Source: Erysipelotrichia bacterium (GTDB taxonomy: Bacteria > Bacillota_I > Bacilli_A > Erysipelotrichales > Erysipelotrichaceae). From it: DNA of 56,217 nt. The DNA lies in NCBI GenBank assembly GCA_018333955.1, contig JAGXSD010000054.1, positions 1 to 56,217 of the forward strand, written 5' to 3'. This document shows, one piece after another, positions 25,751-43,854 of the stretch. Under the pieces are notes generated by a model. That model was given only the letters and a program-made list of their open reading frames with translations, was not told the origin of the DNA and made no database searches. The first letter of the stretch is position 1, and every line of letters starts with the position of its first letter. The translations under genes were made by a program, and so were the position numbers.

Positions 25751-25814
25751 TTTTCTTCTTAGTTGTATATTTGACTAAAAACCTTGACTTCACTCATTGA
25801 TTTGAGTACGATAC

Positions 25815-25895
25815 TTAAGGAAATGAAATCTTCCCTGGGAAACCTAAACCGCCATGTGCTGATGACTTCTAGTCTTTTAGTCACGTGGTTTTTTT
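25815..25895 (+). ncRNA. Fluoride riboswitch (crcB motif) with overlapping terminator
   Basis: The region carries the crcB-motif core: GGAAATG ... TCTTCC, then AAACCGCC, then GCTGATGACTTCTA. These match the conserved aptamer blocks (GG-GATG, AACCGCC, GCTGATG-C-TCTAC) in the right order and close spacing, with the first block off by one base. Its 3' part (CCATGTG, 25852-25858) can instead pair with CACGTGG (25882-25888). That stem runs directly into seven Ts, so a terminator competes with the aptamer. Ligand binding should allow read-through. The controlled gene is the antiporter at 25910. Confidence 0.82.
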
Positions 25896-25909
25896 ATGAA
25901 AGGAATTGT

Positions 25910-27094
25910 ATGCTACTCTCATTTGCAATGATGTTTTTATGTGGTCTAGGATTGGGTAAGGTCTTTGATGCTTTGAAACTACCTCGACTTATTGGCATGA
26001 TGTTAACTGGACTAATACTAGGACCCTTTGCCTTAAATCTACTCGATGAGAAAATTCTCATCATCTCAGGTGATTTAAGACAACTAGCTTTAGTGATTAT
26101 CCTCATTCGTGCTGGACTAAATCTTGATATTCAAGACTTACGACTAGTGGGTCGACCTGCAGTATTGTTGAGCTTTATCCCTGCGTTATTTGAAATCCTT
26201 GGCGTCACCATATTTGCGACTGTATTATTTAAGTTTTCATGGATTGATGGAGTTTTATTAGGGTGTGTATTGGCAGCAGTATCACCGGCAATTATTGTGC
26301 CTAGTATGTTAAAACTGAAAGAGAAAAGGCTAGGAGTTAATAAATTGATACCTCAATTAGTCATGGCAGGAGCATCCATAGATGATGTGTTTGTGATTGT
26401 TTTGTTTACATCATTTCTATCTTTATCACTAACAGGACAAACCTCACCATTGATTTGGATGCAACTTCCAATAACAATAGGACTAGGATTATTGGGAGGG
26501 TTTGTGATTGGTCATTTGCTTTCATGGTGGTTTACGCGCTTTCACATTCGCGATACAGGTAAGGTGATGATAATCTTATCAACAGCATTTATTCTCATGT
26601 ATCTTGAAAGTATTAAGTTTTCAATCTTCTCATTTTCTGCTTTGATATCGATTATGATGATGGCCGCGATGATTCAGATCAAAAAAGAGCATGTTGCAAA
26701 GCGACTATCACACAAGTTTTCAAAACTGTGGCATGCAGCAGAAGTGATATTGTTTGTGCTTGTTGGTGCTCAAGTCTCATGGAATAGTGTTATGAATATT
26801 GGACTATATGCCGTAATACTAATCCTAGCAGCGCTTACATTTAGAGCTTGTGGTGTTGTCCTAAGTCTTGTCAAAACCCCTTATAACACAAAAGAGAAAA
26901 TGTTCATAGTCTTATCTTACATACCAAAAGCTACAGTACAAGCCGCTATTGGAAGCATAGCATTAGGACTCAATCATCCTCAAGGTTCATTGATTCTCAC
27001 GCTAGCCGTATTATCAATCTTAATTAGTGCGCCTTTAGGAGCATGGCTCATAGATCATAGTGCATCAACATTACTCTCTTACGAAATGGAATAA
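25910..27094 (+). CDS. CPA-type cation/proton antiporter under fluoride control
   Basis: The polytopic membrane protein (about 395 residues, 11-12 hydrophobic segments) belongs to the monovalent cation:proton antiporters of the CPA superfamily. LPRLIGMMLTGLILGP is the typical segment after the first helix. LGCVLAAVSPAIIVPSML and AGASIDDVFVIVLFTSF (with the paired Asp-Asp) mark the ion-binding core. Such antiporters are known partners of fluoride riboswitches, probably helping tolerate fluoride-induced pH or ion stress. AAAGGA at 25899-25904 selects the ATG at 25910. The upstream part of the open frame lies in the riboswitch. Confidence 0.88.
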   Translation: MLLSFAMMFLCGLGLGKVFDALKLPRLIGMMLTGLILGPFALNLLDEKILIISGDLRQLALVIILIRAGLNLDIQDLRLVGRPAVLLSFIPALFEILGVTIFATVLFKFSWIDGVLLGCVLAAVSPAIIVPSMLKLKEKRLGVNKLIPQLVMAGASIDDVFVIVLFTSFLSLSLTGQTSPLIWMQLPITIGLGLLGGFVIGHLLSWWFTRFHIRDTGKVMIILSTAFILMYLESIKFSIFSFSALISIMMMAAMIQIKKEHVAKRLSHKFSKLWHAAEVILFVLVGAQVSWNSVMNIGLYAVILILAALTFRACGVVLSLVKTPYNTKEKMFIVLSYIPKATVQAAIGSIALGLNHPQGSLILTLAVLSILISAPLGAWLIDHSASTLLSYEME

Positions 27095-37069: not shown

Positions 37070-37098
37070 TTGCTTTATTGTTCATTATCCTTTAAAAT
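37070..37098 (+). promoter_or_regulatory. Promoter of the spermidine operon
   Basis: TTGCTT (37070-37075) and TAAAAT (37093-37098) lie 17 bases apart. Transcription should start near 37105, which gives a leader of about 270 bases before speD. Confidence 0.65.
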
Positions 37099-37104
37099 CA
37101 TACC

Positions 37105-37377
37105 GTAATAGAAGTCCACAGGGTTCTGTGCTATTGCAACCAATTTTGTATCCTTGACCGACACGTCATGTGTCTTAAACGGCCAAACGGACAGCCAGGT
37201 CAAAAGCCGAAATTGCGATTGTAAATCGTGTTGATCGATGATGGTTCATCAACGATGTTTCTTCTCAACATGAGCACCCCAAACCTCGGTTTGGCTTCCT
37301 CAATAAAACATGGCGTTTTTGCGTCAATGTTGTTGCGAAGACCATCATTAGGTCTTTTTTTCATGTAAGGAGCACTC
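37105..37377 (+). promoter_or_regulatory. Long structured leader of the spermidine operon, candidate riboswitch
   Basis: I see ordered helices. CACAG/CTGTG (37117-37121 with 37126-37130) has loop GGTT that is complementary to AACC at 37138-37141, a possible H-type pseudoknot. CAATTT/AAATTG (37141-37146 with 37210-37215) encloses TTGACC/GGTCAA (37154-37159 with 37198-37203), directly stacked on GACAC/GTGTC (37160-37164 with 37170-37174). GTTGAT/ATCAAC (37230-37235 with 37248-37253) presents ATGATGGT in its loop. CCAAACC/GGTTTGG (37279-37285 with 37288-37294) lies inside CAACAT/ATGTTG (37266-37271 with 37327-37332). A terminator ends it. I do not recognise SAM, guanidine, lysine or T-box consensus cores. 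Confidence 0.6.
37338..37361 (+). terminator. Leader terminator before speD, with candidate antiterminator
   Basis: AAGACC (37338-37343) pairs with GGTCTT (37351-37356) and a T-run reaches 37361. ATGATGGT at 37238-37245 is fully complementary to ACCATCAT at 37341-37348, which covers half the stem and most of the loop. That pairing would remove the terminator. The ribosome binding site and ATG of speD follow immediately. Confidence 0.7.
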
Positions 37378-38184
37378 ATGAGTAAAATTAAACTGTATGG
37401 ATTCAATAATCTAACTAAAACACTATCATTCAATATCTTTGATATTGCCTATGTCGAAAACGAAAAGCAACGTCAAGATTATGTTGCCTATATTGATGAA
37501 CAATATAATGCACATCGACTAACCTCAATTCTCGTGGATGTTACCCATATGATTGGCGCAACTGTGCTTAATATCTCAAAGCAAGACTACGATCCTCAAG
37601 GAGCTAGTGTTACTTTGCTTATTTCGGAAGAACCGCTTGATGATACATTACTTGATCCATCATGTTCTGTTGATCCTCAGTTTGTTAAGAAAGAAAGTGT
37701 TGCAGGTCATCTAGATAAATCTCATGTGACGGTCCATACTTATCCTGAATATCATCCTGATTTAAATATTGCGACATTCCGTGTTGATATTGATGTCTCC
37801 ACATGTGGAAAGATTTCACCTTTGAATGCATTAAACTATTTAATTAACTCATTTGATTCAGATATTATTACATTAGATTATCGTGTTCGTGGCTTTACTC
37901 GTGATGAAGAAGGTAAAAAACTCTTTATTGATCATCCTATTACCAGCATTCAAGATTACATTGATCCTCATGTGCTTGAAAAGTATGATGCCGTGGATAT
38001 CAATGTATACCAATCCAATATTTTCCACACTAAGATGATTTTATCGGATGTGGTATTATCAAATTACTTATTTGCTTCATCACCTCAATCTTATAGTCCA
38101 AAAGAAAAATTAAGTATTACTCGTCGTTTACGTCAAGAGATGATTGAGATATTCTCATCATCCAATGTCTTTGACCATGAGTAA
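37378..38184 (+). CDS. speD: S-adenosylmethionine decarboxylase proenzyme (long form)
   Basis: This pyruvoyl enzyme decarboxylates SAM to give the aminopropyl donor for spermidine. It is the long, E. coli-like form (268 residues). The self-cleavage site is HLDKSHVTVHTYPE with the Lys114-Ser115 bond, where Ser becomes the pyruvoyl group. VSTCGKISPLNALNYLI holds the conserved Cys143. RVRGFTRDEEGKKLFIDH and VYQSNIFHTKM are also as in E. coli SpeD. AAGGAG precedes the ATG. It leads an operon with speA, speE, speB and metK behind the structured leader. Its stop lies inside the start of the next gene. Confidence 0.95.
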   Translation: MSKIKLYGFNNLTKTLSFNIFDIAYVENEKQRQDYVAYIDEQYNAHRLTSILVDVTHMIGATVLNISKQDYDPQGASVTLLISEEPLDDTLLDPSCSVDPQFVKKESVAGHLDKSHVTVHTYPEYHPDLNIATFRVDIDVSTCGKISPLNALNYLINSFDSDIITLDYRVRGFTRDEEGKKLFIDHPITSIQDYIDPHVLEKYDAVDINVYQSNIFHTKMILSDVVLSNYLFASSPQSYSPKEKLSITRRLRQEMIEIFSSSNVFDHE

Positions 38185-39616
38185 AACACCTTTACTTGAC
38201 GGGTTAAAGCGCTACGCAAAAAAACGTGTTGTAGCCTTTGATGTGCCTGGTCATAAACAAGGAAAAGGGGATAAGACACTGATTGATGTGTTTGGATCAC
38301 AAGCTATTCAATATGATTTTAATTCGTCACATTATTTAGATAACCTCGGAAATCCGAGTGGAATTATTCATGAAGCTCATGAACTAGCAGCCCAAGCCTT
38401 TGGGGCAAAACATGCATTCTTTATGGTCAATGGGACGTCCATGGCCGTCATGGTCATGATTTTATCATGTGTTAAAGAAGGTGAAAGTGTGATTATGCCA
38501 CGTAATGTTCATAAATCTGCACTGAATGCTTTAATTCTTGGGGGTGCCCATCCTATCTATGTGGACCCTGAAATGGAAACAGAACTTGGGATTTCATGTG
38601 CTATGGATGCTCAAAATGTCATAAAAACCATGAGAGATAATCCTCATGCGAAAGCGGTATTTGTTAATAATCCAACGTACTATGGACTAGTTTCAGACTT
38701 GCAAAGCATTGTGAGTGTGGCTCATGAATTGGGAATGAAAGTTCTGGTTGATGAAGCCCATGGAGCACATTTTTATTTCCATGATGAATTGCCTATTTCC
38801 GCTATGCACGTCAAAGCCGATATGAGTAGTGTCTCACTTCATAAAACAGGGGGGTCACTTACACAATCTTCCATCTTGCTTTGTGGTGAAAGCATGGATT
38901 ATAACCATGTACTTCAAACGATTAACTTGCTTCAAACAACCTCTCCGAGTTATTTACTTATGGCCTCTTTGGATGTAGCTCGTGCTAAACTTCAAAAAGA
39001 AGGCCAAGCCATGTTTACGAAAATTATGGAACTTGCCGACTACGCACGTCGTGAAATCAATGCGATGGGAGGTTATATTGCTTTTGGACCAGATCGAATT
39101 GGTCATCCAGGCATTTATAACTTTGATCGCACAAAACTCAGTATTCATACTCAAGGCATAGGATTAAGTGGCAAAAAAGTGTACGATATTCTTAGAGATG
39201 AATATGGTATACAACTTGAATTTGGTGATGTGTCGAATGTTTTAGCGATTATTTCAGTGGGCGATCGCGCATTGGAAGTGGAACGCTTACTTGCAGCACT
39301 ACAAGATATAAAAGAACGTTATGCAAGTTCACAAACCAATCAACCGATTCAAGAGTTTATTCAACCCCATGTGAAGATGAGTCCAAAGCAAGCTTACAGT
39401 GCATCTTCTGAAATGGTTGAATTTAGTCAATCACTAGGTCGTATTAGTGCTGAGATGATCATGGCATATCCTCCAGGGATTCCGATTCTCTCATATGGTG
39501 AAGTGATTACGCAAGATATACTCGATTACATCGTCTTTGGGCGTCGTAATGATCAATTTCTAATGGGATCTCATGATCCTGAATTAAATACCTTAAAGGT
39601 CGTTAAGGAGGACTAA
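38177..39616 (+). CDS. speA: Fold-type I PLP arginine decarboxylase
   Basis: The protein belongs to the Orn/Lys/Arg decarboxylase family (about 479 residues, prokaryotic group without the N-terminal wing domain). FDVPGHKQGKG near residue 21 is the family N-motif. VDEAHGAH (Asp192) holds the PLP pyridine ring, and SLHKTGGSLTQ provides the Schiff-base Lys223. Arginine is the likely substrate because agmatinase is encoded in the same operon. Ornithine or lysine cannot be excluded from sequence. The start is inside the end of speD: ATG at 38177 is preferred, with ATG at 38165 as the alternative, and neither has a strong ribosome binding site. Translational coupling is likely. Confidence 0.9.
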   Translation: MSKTPLLDGLKRYAKKRVVAFDVPGHKQGKGDKTLIDVFGSQAIQYDFNSSHYLDNLGNPSGIIHEAHELAAQAFGAKHAFFMVNGTSMAVMVMILSCVKEGESVIMPRNVHKSALNALILGGAHPIYVDPEMETELGISCAMDAQNVIKTMRDNPHAKAVFVNNPTYYGLVSDLQSIVSVAHELGMKVLVDEAHGAHFYFHDELPISAMHVKADMSSVSLHKTGGSLTQSSILLCGESMDYNHVLQTINLLQTTSPSYLLMASLDVARAKLQKEGQAMFTKIMELADYARREINAMGGYIAFGPDRIGHPGIYNFDRTKLSIHTQGIGLSGKKVYDILRDEYGIQLEFGDVSNVLAIISVGDRALEVERLLAALQDIKERYASSQTNQPIQEFIQPHVKMSPKQAYSASSEMVEFSQSLGRISAEMIMAYPPGIPILSYGEVITQDILDYIVFGRRNDQFLMGSHDPELNTLKVVKED

Positions 39617-40471
39617 ATGGAACTATGGTACACCGAGCAACAAACAGAACATGTGCGTTTCTCAATTAAAATAAAACAACATCTCTTCTCAGCAAAAAGC
39701 GATTTCCAACAAGTGGATGTCTTTGATTCTGTTGAGTTTGGAAAATTTTTAACACTTGATGGACTTATGATGGTCACTGAAAAGGATGAATTCATCTACC
39801 ACGACATGATTGTGCATGTCCCAATGGCGTCTAATCCAAACATTAAGAAAGTTTGTGTGATTGGAGCGGGCGATGGAGGAACAGTACGAGAATTACTCCG
39901 TTATCCTCATATTGAAACGATTGATATGGTAGAAATTGATCCAATGGTGGTGGATGTAAGTATTGCGTACTTGCCTCAAACAGCATCACAACTTCATCAT
40001 GAAAAAGTAAACTTATTCTTTGAGGATGGTTTGAAGTTCATTCGCTCAAAAGTTAATGAATACGATTTGATTATTGTGGATTCCACTGATCCATTTGGAC
40101 CTGGTGAAGGATTATTCACTAAAGAATTTTATTCAAACTGTTACCGTGCATTAAACGCGAATGGTATTTTAGTGAATCAACATGAATCACCTTATTATCC
40201 AGCCTTTGAGCGCAATATGCGTCGTGCTCATCAACGTATTTCTGAAGTGTTTGATGTGGCGAAAGTTTATCAAGCTCATATTCCAACATACCCTAGTGGC
40301 CATTGGTTATTTGGATATGCATCCAAAGGAATTCAACCGATTAACGAACATGTGAAGTCATGGCATGATTATGGCATTGAAACGAAGTATTATAATCCAG
40401 CACTCCATGTAGGATGTTTCGCTCTTCCAACTTATGTCATTGAATCACTCAAAGAGGATTATCATGATTAA
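39617..40471 (+). CDS. speE: Spermidine synthase
   Basis: This aminopropyltransferase of 284 residues starts with ELWYTEQQTEHVRFSIK. It contains FLTLDGLMMVTEKDEFIYHDM (amine-binding strand), CVIGAGDGGTVREL (the nucleotide loop that binds decarboxylated SAM), MVEIDPMVV and IVDSTDPFGPGEGLF with the catalytic Asp. It transfers the aminopropyl group from decarboxylated SAM (SpeD product) to putrescine (SpeB product). AAGGAGGAC directly before the ATG is strong. It lies immediately after speA and overlaps speB by eight bases. Confidence 0.95.
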   Translation: MELWYTEQQTEHVRFSIKIKQHLFSAKSDFQQVDVFDSVEFGKFLTLDGLMMVTEKDEFIYHDMIVHVPMASNPNIKKVCVIGAGDGGTVRELLRYPHIETIDMVEIDPMVVDVSIAYLPQTASQLHHEKVNLFFEDGLKFIRSKVNEYDLIIVDSTDPFGPGEGLFTKEFYSNCYRALNANGILVNQHESPYYPAFERNMRRAHQRISEVFDVAKVYQAHIPTYPSGHWLFGYASKGIQPINEHVKSWHDYGIETKYYNPALHVGCFALPTYVIESLKEDYHD

Positions 40472-41318
40472 TGCTAAAGATGTATATATGAGTGCAGAAT
40501 CATCCTATGAGGATGCTGACATTGTGATGTTTGGAGTGGATTATGATGGCACATGTTCCTTTAGACCAGGCACTCGCTTTGGTCCTAGTGCAGTGCGTCG
40601 TGCTTCTTATGGACTTGAGACCTTTAGTTGGTCCACTGAATGTGATCTTGAAACATTAAGCATCTTCGATCGTGGTGATTTAGGATGTCCAATGGGAGAT
40701 TCACTTGAAACTCAAAGAATGATTAAGGAAACGACAGCTCAAATTCTAAGTGATCAAAAAATCCCATTTATGATTGGGGGAGAACATTCAATCTCATACC
40801 CAAGTATTGAAGCAGTCTATGAAGTGTATCCAGATCTTAAAGTCATTCAACTCGATGCCCATGCGGATTTAAGAGAAACCTACATGAATAATCCTTATTC
40901 TCATGCCTGTGTCATGAATCGTGTGGTTAAGTTATGTGGTTCACAGCGTTTAATTCAATGGGGTATTCGCTCAGGGACAAAAGAAGAATTTGCGTTTGCG
41001 AAAGAACATACACTATGTTTAAAAGCTGACGTTGAAGCTTTAAAAAATGCAATCAAAGATTTTGGATCTACTCCAGTCTATCTTACGATTGATGTGGATG
41101 TGATTGATCCAAGCTTACTGCCTGGTACAGGAACCCCTGAACCTGGAGGGATTACCTATACTATGTTTGAAGAAGTCATACAAGTATTAAGTTCACTGAA
41201 TATTGTGGGACTTGATATGGTGGAATTATCTCCAGATTATGATCATTCTGGAGTAAGTAGTGTTGTGGTGGCGAAGATGGTTCGCCAGTGCTTAATGATG
41301 ATAGGAGAAAAATTATGA
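40464..41318 (+). CDS. speB: Agmatinase
   Basis: This ureohydrolase has 285 residues. The binuclear manganese site is read from [22 protein letters not shown] (DAHxD) and [23 protein letters not shown]. It hydrolyses agmatine, the product of SpeA, to putrescine and urea. Placement between speE and metK in the spermidine operon supports agmatinase over arginase. AGAGGA at 40452-40457 selects the ATG at 40464, inside the end of speE. Its stop overlaps the start of metK by four bases. Confidence 0.93.
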
Positions 41319-42487
41319 GCAAAAAAGTATACTTTACTTCTGAATCAGTCACTGAAGGACACCCAGATAAAATCTGTGACCAAGTGTCTGATGCGGTTCT
41401 AGATGCAATTCTAAAAGAAGATCCAACAGCCCGTGTTGCGTGTGAAACCGCAATTACAACAGGACTTGTTCTTGTGATGGGAGAAATCACCACCTCAACG
41501 TATGTCGATATTCCAAAAATTGTAAGACAAACGATTTTAAACATTGGTTATGATCGTGCTAAATATGGTTTTGATGCCCATACATGTGGTGTGATTACTT
41601 CCATTGATGAACAATCTCCTGATATTGCCCAAGGGGTTGACCGTGCCTATGATGCACAAAGTGATTATGATCATGGCGCAGGGGATCAAGGGATGATGTT
41701 TGGTTACGCATGTGATGAAACACCTGAACTGATGCCTCTTCCGATTTCACTTGCTCATAAATTAGCTCGTCAGTTATCACTTGTACGCAAAGACAAAACT
41801 TTAGATTATTTACGTCCTGATGGAAAAACACAAGTGAGTGTAGAATATGTGGATGGAAAACCAACCCGTGTCGATACGATTGTGATTTCAACACAACATG
41901 CTGAACACATCACTCATGAACAAATCGTTGCGGATCTTAAGAAACATGTGATTGGACCAGTTGTGGATGCGAATCTTGTGGATGAGGATACTAAATATTT
42001 CATCAACCCTACAGGGAAATTTGTTGTGGGTGGACCACAAGGCGATAGTGGATTAACAGGTCGTAAGATTATTGTGGATACCTATGGTGGGATGGCTCGT
42101 CATGGTGGTGGAGCATTCTCAGGAAAAGATCCAACCAAAGTTGACCGCTCTGCTGCGTATGCAACACGCTATGTCGCAAAAAACATCGTTGCGGCCGGAT
42201 TAGCCACAAAATGTGAAGTTCAAGTGGCCTATGCGATTGGGGTTGCACGACCAGTCTCTATCTTTGTGGATACTTTTGGAACTGGGTTACTTGGTGATGA
42301 TGAGTTAGCACTTATTGTCGCACAAGAGTTTGATTTACGTCCAAAAGCGATTATCGACACTTTACAACTGCGTCGTCCTCAATATCGTCAAGTGGCTGCT
42401 TATGGTCATATGGGACGTGAAGATGTGGATGTCGCATGGGAAAAAGTAAATCGTGTTAATGATTTACGTAAATATCTCCCTCAATAA
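41315..42487 (+). CDS. metK: S-adenosylmethionine synthetase
   Basis: The 390-residue enzyme makes SAM from methionine and ATP. Family signatures are [19 protein letters not shown] at the N-terminus (ATP/Met-binding histidine), [12 protein letters not shown] (loop over the active site) and [19 protein letters not shown]. It supplies the SAM that SpeD decarboxylates, so inclusion in the operon is logical and unusual, as metK is generally a separate gene. AGGAGA selects the ATG at 41315, and ATGA overlap with speB implies translational coupling. It is probably also the cell's general SAM source. Confidence 0.95.
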
Positions 42488-42522: not shown

Positions 42523-43854
42523 ATGTTCAAAAACTTTAAACGCGATATTTTCCCACTAGCTTGGCCAATTTTTATAGAGATTGGTCTTTTCATGATTATG
42601 GGTAACATCGATGTGGTTATGTTATCCCGTGTTGGTGAAACCGTGGTGAGTGCAGTGGGAAATATGAACCAAATGTTTAATCTTACCGCACTCATGTTTA
42701 GTGTGGTCACCTCAGCATCCGCCATCTTAATTTCTCAAAGTATTGGTGCAAAGAAAACCAGTGAATTACCCACCATTGTTTCATTAGCATTTGTGCTCAA
42801 TATTTCCTTTGCATTAATTCTTGGGGTCGGTGTTATTTTCTTTGGATCAGCATTTCTATCATTAATCAATGTTCCTGTTGAGTCCATTTTAGTGGGTCGT
42901 GGTTACATGATGATTGTAGGGTCTACCTTGTTTGTGCATGCGGGGACTCTTGTATTAACAACAACACTCAGAGCTCATAAGTATACCAAAGAAGTGATGT
43001 ATATTTCGGTATTCATGAATATTCTTAATGTGATTGGGAATTATACATTCCTATTTGGTCCACTTGCATATCTTAATATGGGAGTGGTTGGCGTGGCTTT
43101 ATCGACAGCACTTTCTCGAAGTATTGGATTACTTTTAAACTATCGCTTATGTGGTCGTTTAGTCCACTTTACACCTCGATTGAGACACTTGAAGTCAGTG
43201 AGTAAGGATTTATTTGTGAAGATGATTCGCCTTGGTTCTCCTGCAGCCATTGAACCGTTATCATATCAACTTGTGCAAGTCATCATGTTTTCTTATATTA
43301 ACTCCTATGGTCATGTCGCCATTAACACACGGGTGTATGTGCAAACCGCGACATGGTTTGTCTATCTTGCGGTTTTGGCGATTGCGCAAGCAAGCTTAAT
43401 CGTGGTTGGGGAACGTATAGGCCAAAATCGAAGTAATGAAGCTCGTATTATGGTTTTCAATAATTTGAAAATTTCCTTAATGATTTCTCTGACCATGTCA
43501 CTTTTCCTAGCCATAAATAGCCGTTTCTTTATTGGCTTATTTACCGATAATGAGGCCATTTTGCAATTGGCAAGTACGATACTTTGGATTGATGTGATTT
43601 TAGAAATAGGAAGAACCTTTAATCTGGTTCTGATTCTTTCTGCTCGAGGAGCAGGAGATGTTAAGTTTCCAATGATGATTGCGATTATTGTGATGTGGAT
43701 TGTGGGACTTGGGGTAGGAGTCACTTTAGCAACCGTATTCAACTTACAGCTTATTGGAATTTGGATTGGATTAACCTTTGATGAATGGGTTAGAGGATTT
43801 CTTATGATGCTTCGTTGGAGAGGAGAAAAATGGAAACGATTCAAAATGGTTTAA
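42523..43854 (+). CDS. MATE-family efflux transporter
   Basis: This multidrug and toxic compound extrusion family member has about 443 residues and twelve hydrophobic segments. The internal two-bundle organisation is visible: NIDVVMLSRVGETVVSAVGN in the first half, typical of MATE helix 1-2, and GSPAAIEPLSYQLVQVIMF in the second. It probably exports a cationic organic compound with Na+ or H+ coupling. Location after the spermidine operon raises the possibility of polyamine export but does not show it. ATG at 42523 is favoured because its ribosome binding site lies in the preceding hairpin. Confidence 0.9.
   Translation: MFKNFKRDIFPLAWPIFIEIGLFMIMGNIDVVMLSRVGETVVSAVGNMNQMFNLTALMFSVVTSASAILISQSIGAKKTSELPTIVSLAFVLNISFALILGVGVIFFGSAFLSLINVPVESILVGRGYMMIVGSTLFVHAGTLVLTTTLRAHKYTKEVMYISVFMNILNVIGNYTFLFGPLAYLNMGVVGVALSTALSRSIGLLLNYRLCGRLVHFTPRLRHLKSVSKDLFVKMIRLGSPAAIEPLSYQLVQVIMFSYINSYGHVAINTRVYVQTATWFVYLAVLAIAQASLIVVGERIGQNRSNEARIMVFNNLKISLMISLTMSLFLAINSRFFIGLFTDNEAILQLASTILWIDVILEIGRTFNLVLILSARGAGDVKFPMMIAIIVMWIVGLGVGVTLATVFNLQLIGIWIGLTFDEWVRGFLMMLRWRGEKWKRFKMV

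Follow-up and report, generated by a model that had tools for sequence, protein, structure and literature searches.

The speD-led operon examined here is preceded by a leader that, in our judgement, is likely to be a shortened member of a Firmicutes-wide polyamine riboswitch, a transcriptional OFF switch with spermidine or a close relative as its likeliest ligand. The leader lies in a 56,217-nt stretch of DNA from an Erysipelotrichia bacterium, called the window below; the promoter, the leader elements and the operon genes from speD to metK are on its + strand.

Organization of the leader and operon

The leader occupies the interval that separates speD from a GNAT acetyltransferase gene, where a conserved promoter, a structured leader of about 240 nt and a terminator succeed each other upstream of a speD-speA/ldcC-speE-speB-metK gene cluster. 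The promoter (37070-37098), already proposed in the first-pass annotation of this DNA, reads as a -35 box TTGCTT (37070-37075), a 17-nt spacer and a -10 box TAAAAT (37093-37098), and was borne out by comparison: among the speD-carrying genomes of the genus, all four (L150-L153) have it at the same position with the same spacing. It was missed by a generic promoter scan, so that its support is conservation. Downstream of the terminator, a Shine-Dalgarno sequence (AAGGAG, 37367-37372, read from the sequence) serves speD, which encodes adenosylmethionine decarboxylase (37378-38184; NCBIfam TIGR03331, 405.7 bits). It is followed by genes for a speA/ldcC-type Orn/Lys/Arg decarboxylase (38165-39616; its best NCBIfam match, the LdcC model, scores under that model's cut-off), spermidine synthase (speE, 39617-40471; NF002010, 376.9 bits, and TIGR00417, 301 bits), agmatinase (speB, 40434-41318; TIGR01230, 272.9 bits) and SAM synthetase (metK, 41312-42487; Pfam PF00438, PF02772 and PF02773). 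A MATE-family exporter gene (42523-43851) lies close behind metK and may be part of the operon. Outside the leader, the window's only fluoride riboswitch (RF01734, 25810-25878; 38.2 bits, cut-off 34) is found inside the 5′ portion of a predicted cation/proton-antiporter-like gene or immediately ahead of it; the start of this gene, listed as 25784-27094, is probably placed too far upstream.

The leader contains RF02440, the core of a larger RNA

The leader is predicted to fold more stably than shuffled sequences (z = -2.75, 0/200). A cmscan search identified a match to the Rfam family RF02440, SpF59_sRNA (ldcC RNA), at 37155-37210, scoring 46.2 bits (cut-off 37.2) and covering the full model (1-54), which places the leader in this family by covariance-model score. 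No other Rfam match was obtained in the leader in a permissive scan (E<=1), the SAM-I, lysine, guanidine, T-box and fluoride classes included. An earlier statement that the leader has no recognizable class holds for these five classes and fails in a narrow sense, as Rfam has the core as RF02440. A hit to a known class had also been named as an argument against a new riboswitch; RF02440 is such a hit in a formal sense only, because the family carries no assigned mechanism. Rfam describes it as a 54-nt family of the sRNA type. In the open-licence literature we found no paper giving a function or riboswitch status for RF02440, a silence that is weak evidence since only open-licence papers were covered, and the source of the alias 'ldcC RNA' was not traced in the same literature.

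The core, supported by both the cmscan match and covariation, consists of helix P2 (TTGACC 37154-37159/GGTCAA 37198-37203), a hairpin (GACAC 37160-37164/GTGTC 37170-37174), helix P3 (GGC 37181-37183/GCC 37194-37196) and a pseudoknot (CGG 37188-37190/CCG 37207-37209). It is closed by a helix kept in relatives of the window's clade (CAATTT 37141-37146/AAATTG 37210-37215), whereas in other clades the RNA is closed by a different outer helix, P1. The stacked helices previously noted at 37141-37215 are thus present, and include the RF02440 match.

At the predicted transcript start stands a hairpin (37105-37137) conserved in four relatives and built from GTAATAG 37105-37111/CTATTGC 37131-37137 and CACAG 37117-37121/CTGTG 37126-37130. 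The shorter hairpin described before at 37117-37130 is real, but belongs to this longer stem. The H-type pseudoknot suggested between its loop (GGTT, 37122-37125) and AACC (37138-37141) was rejected: the loop reads GGTT, GGTT, GATT and GATA in the relatives while AACC is invariant, leaving the two unable to pair in two of four. The true pseudoknot is the CGG:CCG pairing within the RF02440 core.

Conservation and covariation among homologues

Homologues were collected in two ways, by running the Rfam model on whole genomes and by searching genome contigs with a DNA pattern; pattern matches in Klenkia (L040) and Paractinoplanes (L118) were taken to be accidental, lying in GC-rich coding DNA, and were removed. 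Most copies beyond the window's genus share a layout of outer helix P1, the RF02440 core, a hairpin (GGCAAC/GUUGCC) and then a second domain, domain II. In the main class, domain II has Pa (UUAUUGA/UCAAUAA) as its closing helix, with hairpin Pb (GAGUU/AGCUC) and another helix, Pc (UUUUAUAAGU/ACUUGUGAAA), inside; the RNA is completed either by a 3′ hairpin or by P1 through its 3′ strand. The RF02440 model is, by this comparison, a fragment, the core, of an RNA of about 250 nt found throughout the Firmicutes.

The window leader is a shortened version of this RNA, in which domain II is reduced and Pc is missing. A hairpin CGAT/ATCG (37216-37228) is the counterpart of the consensus GGCAAC..GUUGCC hairpin, a helix that covaries. 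Pa is represented by TGTTGA 37229-37234/TCAACA 37265-37270 (37229-37270), which departs from the consensus UAUUGA/UCAAUA by a compensatory A-U to G-C difference, giving UGUUGA/UCAACA. It encloses Pb, the putative switching hairpin GATGA-TGGT-TCATC (37237-37250), whose 5′ strand and loop, ATGATGGT (37238-37245), would be the antiterminator strand. A 3′ hairpin (37272-37301) follows, formed by GAG 37272-37274/CTC 37299-37301 and CCAAACC 37279-37285/GGTTTGG 37288-37294.

RNAalifold applied to the gappy full alignment recovered the core alone, and helices were therefore counted on separate alignments. Across 59 core sequences, the covariation score was 0.209 versus 0.087±0.009 after shuffling (0/500), and structures slid along the alignment scored 0.066 or less; 92% of cells were paired (84.4% shuffled) and 9 pairs had changed on both sides (4.6 shuffled). 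Some copies have P3 swapped from GGC/GCC to GCC/GGC, and P2 varies from GACC/GGUC to GUCC/GGAC or GACUC/GAGUC. The CGG:CCG pseudoknot is paired in 100% of core sequences, where its sole change, C-G to U-A in L018, is compensatory, a single event that makes for thin covariation support. Domain II also scored above shuffles (0.092 vs. 0.067±0.003, 0/500), with little contribution from Pa and Pc in the main class because they are almost invariant there. For P1, a helix's own strands beat swapped partners in 73 of 110 cases (Wilcoxon p 3.8e-7). The covariation that had been called for in the first-pass annotation is seen in the core and domain II, but not in the antiterminator, which is conserved rather than covarying.

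Several natural variants were noted. Two copies upstream of speD (L169 and L175) retain domain II after loss of the RF02440 core; in L171, domain II is reduced. In a Streptococcaceae copy before potA (L244, and also L112), a structured insertion of about 120 nt within domain II duplicates conserved pieces (AATAAGAGTA is repeated).

Mutually exclusive terminator and antiterminator pairings

The intrinsic terminator reported at 37338-37361 is present, with a stem (AAGACC 37338-37343/GGTCTT 37351-37356) kept in four relatives and a U-run. The reported complementarity between the loop of the second hairpin and the terminator arm likewise stands: ATGATGGT (37238-37245) is fully complementary to ACCATCAT (37341-37348), an 8-nt match for which mononucleotide shuffling gives a chance of about 0.005. 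Three of four relatives retain the pairing (one via G-U; L152 and L153 among them), and in the fourth, L151, it is shifted to UUGAUG:CAUCAA. The 3′ side of the antiterminator (37328-37348) further includes TGTTG (37328-37332), which can pair with CAACG (37250-37254); we do not rely on this second helix, as it is compensated in L151 (CAAAG:CTTTG) yet absent in L152 and L153. Segment 37238-37245 can thus pair either locally or with the terminator arm, and the predicted energies of the terminator and antiterminator folds are close in the window (-74.8 vs. -73.8 kcal/mol, respectively), the antiterminator fold being 6 kcal/mol worse in L151. As judged from sequence and predicted folds, the leader has the mutually exclusive structures of a riboswitch expression platform.

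A terminator lies 3′ of 150 of 178 copies. Complementarity between the conserved Pc 3′ strand ACUUGUG and the 5′ arm of the terminator has a mean score of 12.79, compared with 10.26 for shuffled sequences (z 13); swapped partners score almost equally (12.31), so that this is evidence of conserved complementarity and not of covariation. An OFF switch is predicted, because the antiterminator strand sits in the aptamer and folding of the aptamer would exclude antitermination.

The RNA precedes genes of polyamine synthesis and uptake

In the set obtained with the Rfam model, which involves no sequence pattern, 87 of 100 unique sites precede polyamine synthesis or uptake genes. The first recognized downstream gene was potA at 30 sites, speD at 23, speA at 16, carboxynorspermidine synthase at 16, and nspC and a PotD-like gene at one each. 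In the pattern-derived set, polyamine genes (identities checked with NCBIfam) lie downstream in 98 of 106 cases. Full-length copies in Streptococcaceae genomes precede a speA-type decarboxylase gene. What the controlled genes have in common is a role in supplying polyamine, through synthesis or uptake, and the leaders of these functionally related genes share a conserved, covarying and structured putative aptamer.

Of the other Rfam-model sites, assignment failed for four, in three cases for missing sequence, and nine precede genes for lipoproteins with C39-like or M28 peptidase domains, which we count against the polyamine reading; a polyamine link is possible for the lipoprotein-linked copies of the window's order (L004, L013, L016, L018, L020, L023, L024 and L025).

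RF02440 matches occur in 25 of 196 genomes of the window's order. The class to which a Lachnospiraceae genome belongs gave matches in 35 of 291 genomes, and that of a Paenibacillus genome in 24 of 300; in the family that includes a Lactococcus genome, 30 of 147 genomes had a match. Within the window's genus, the RNA is found in all four speD genomes, and the two genomes without a detected speD have no real match. It is not universal for speD: L154-L166 and L168, whose SpeD is 64-66% identical, have no such leader. No relative was found on plasmids by BLASTN. Two copies lie in contigs labelled Synergistaceae and Spirochaetes (L132 and L089), outside the Firmicutes, through transfer or misbinning of the contigs.

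Proposed mechanism and ligand

From the computed structure, conservation, gene association and mutually exclusive pairings, we infer that the RNA would bind its ligand directly, and infer likewise what that ligand and the direction of switching may be. At high polyamine concentration, the aptamer, made up of the core with its CGG:CCG pseudoknot and the Pa-closed domain II, would be stabilized and would hold the antiterminator strand within it. In the window, this strand would be the 5′ strand and loop of hairpin 37237-37250, and in the main class the Pc 3′ strand ACUUGUGAAA. With the strand held, the terminator at 37338-37361 would form and RNA polymerase would stop before speD. At low polyamine concentration, 37238-37245 would instead pair with 37341-37348, the terminator 5′ arm, allowing transcription of the spe-metK operon. 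The earlier view of the leader as a ligand-controlled attenuator of a polyamine operon has good support from gene context, covariation and terminator/antiterminator anatomy.

Spermidine is the product common to the speDE and carboxynorspermidine-type pathways, and is also a substrate of PotABCD. Spermidine or a related polyamine is the most likely ligand. The first-pass annotation had offered a polyamine, agmatine or SAM; the polyamine stands, while SAM loses ground since many of the controlled operons use none. The presence of speD and metK in the window's operon would suit a riboswitch for SAM, decarboxylated SAM or MTA, but we consider this very improbable, because the many copies before potABCD or carboxynorspermidine synthase/decarboxylase genes serve routes that consume no SAM, and the leader has no SAM-family Rfam match.

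Relation to known RNAs and alternative explanations

The RF02440 family derives from the pneumococcal sRNA F59, which is located between SP0915 and SP0916 (PMC3395615) and was still listed as a putative sRNA in 2025. F59 shares P2, P3 and the GCCGA tail with the window core and also fronts an arginine decarboxylase gene, SP0916 (speA). It differs in being described in Rfam as a 54-nt sRNA, where the RNA presented here is of about 250 nt, with an additional pseudoknot, a second domain and a terminator platform. Deletion of potABCD in Streptococcus pneumoniae lowers polyamines and raises speA (SP_0916) 16.9-fold and speE 14.4-fold by qRT-PCR, a de-repression not visible by RNA-seq in the same study (PMC8540371). 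Because F59 immediately precedes speA, such a rise at low polyamine is in keeping with an OFF switch.

The validated spermidine riboswitch of Salvail et al. 2023, a SAM-I variant of four-stem architecture with 13 examples in few genera, resembles the RNA described here in its position before polyamine genes (ldcC, speB, speE) and in being an OFF switch by transcription termination (PMC10853860). Membership of the leader in that class was rejected, as it has a different core and no SAM-family match at E<=1. Those authors expect more polyamine classes (PMC10853860). The odc1, potE and speF RNA motifs are likewise conserved RNAs tied to polyamine genes, but occur in alphaproteobacteria or Veillonella and are either uORF-linked or lack a clear platform or ligand; the permissive Rfam scan of the leader matched none of them.

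The Rfam typing, and the pneumococcal records of F59 (also srn235 or SN20), raise the possibility of a small RNA that acts in trans by base-pairing elsewhere. A short transcript of the RNA has indeed been detected, sRNA listings include it, and one of them gives it a lung phenotype in a virulence screen. We nevertheless regard this as improbable: a terminated leader would itself look like a short RNA, terminators lie directly 3′ of it, and at 87 of 100 sites across many families it has a cis position before polyamine genes and shares their strand. An additional role in trans is possible.

A leader controlled at its terminator by a protein, whether a polyamine-responsive RNA-binding protein or another, would account equally well for the elaborate conserved fold and the cis position. 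The patchy spread over Clostridia, Bacilli and Streptococcaceae is easier to understand for an RNA needing no partner gene, and we hold protein control to be unlikely, though possible. Attenuation through a leader peptide, as for the odc1 and speF leaders, has a precedent in the uORF-based control of polyamine genes in other bacteria; here, however, the helices covary and loop lengths vary freely. A leader peptide was rejected for the four leaders of the window's genus, which have no conserved uORF with a Shine-Dalgarno sequence (a 9-codon GTG frame occurs in two only), and we give this mechanism scarcely any chance.

The core is catalogued in Rfam as an sRNA; the extended architecture, the pseudoknot and the terminator platform go beyond that entry. 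After a long search for polyamine riboswitches, a single class has been validated, a SAM-I variant that is rare, with 13 examples (PMC10853860). The RNA described here occurs in roughly 8-20% of sampled genomes (for the classes and family searched) and by its position governs both synthesis and uptake genes. On balance, we lean towards RF02440 being the core of a widespread, unrecognized class of riboswitches. Through an aptamer unrelated to SAM-I, they would sense spermidine or a related polyamine directly and shut off genes for polyamine synthesis and uptake throughout the Firmicutes, and F59 would be a terminated product. If polyamine is bound, Gram-positive bacteria would have their main polyamine riboswitch in this RNA, which would also account for a listed pneumococcal sRNA.
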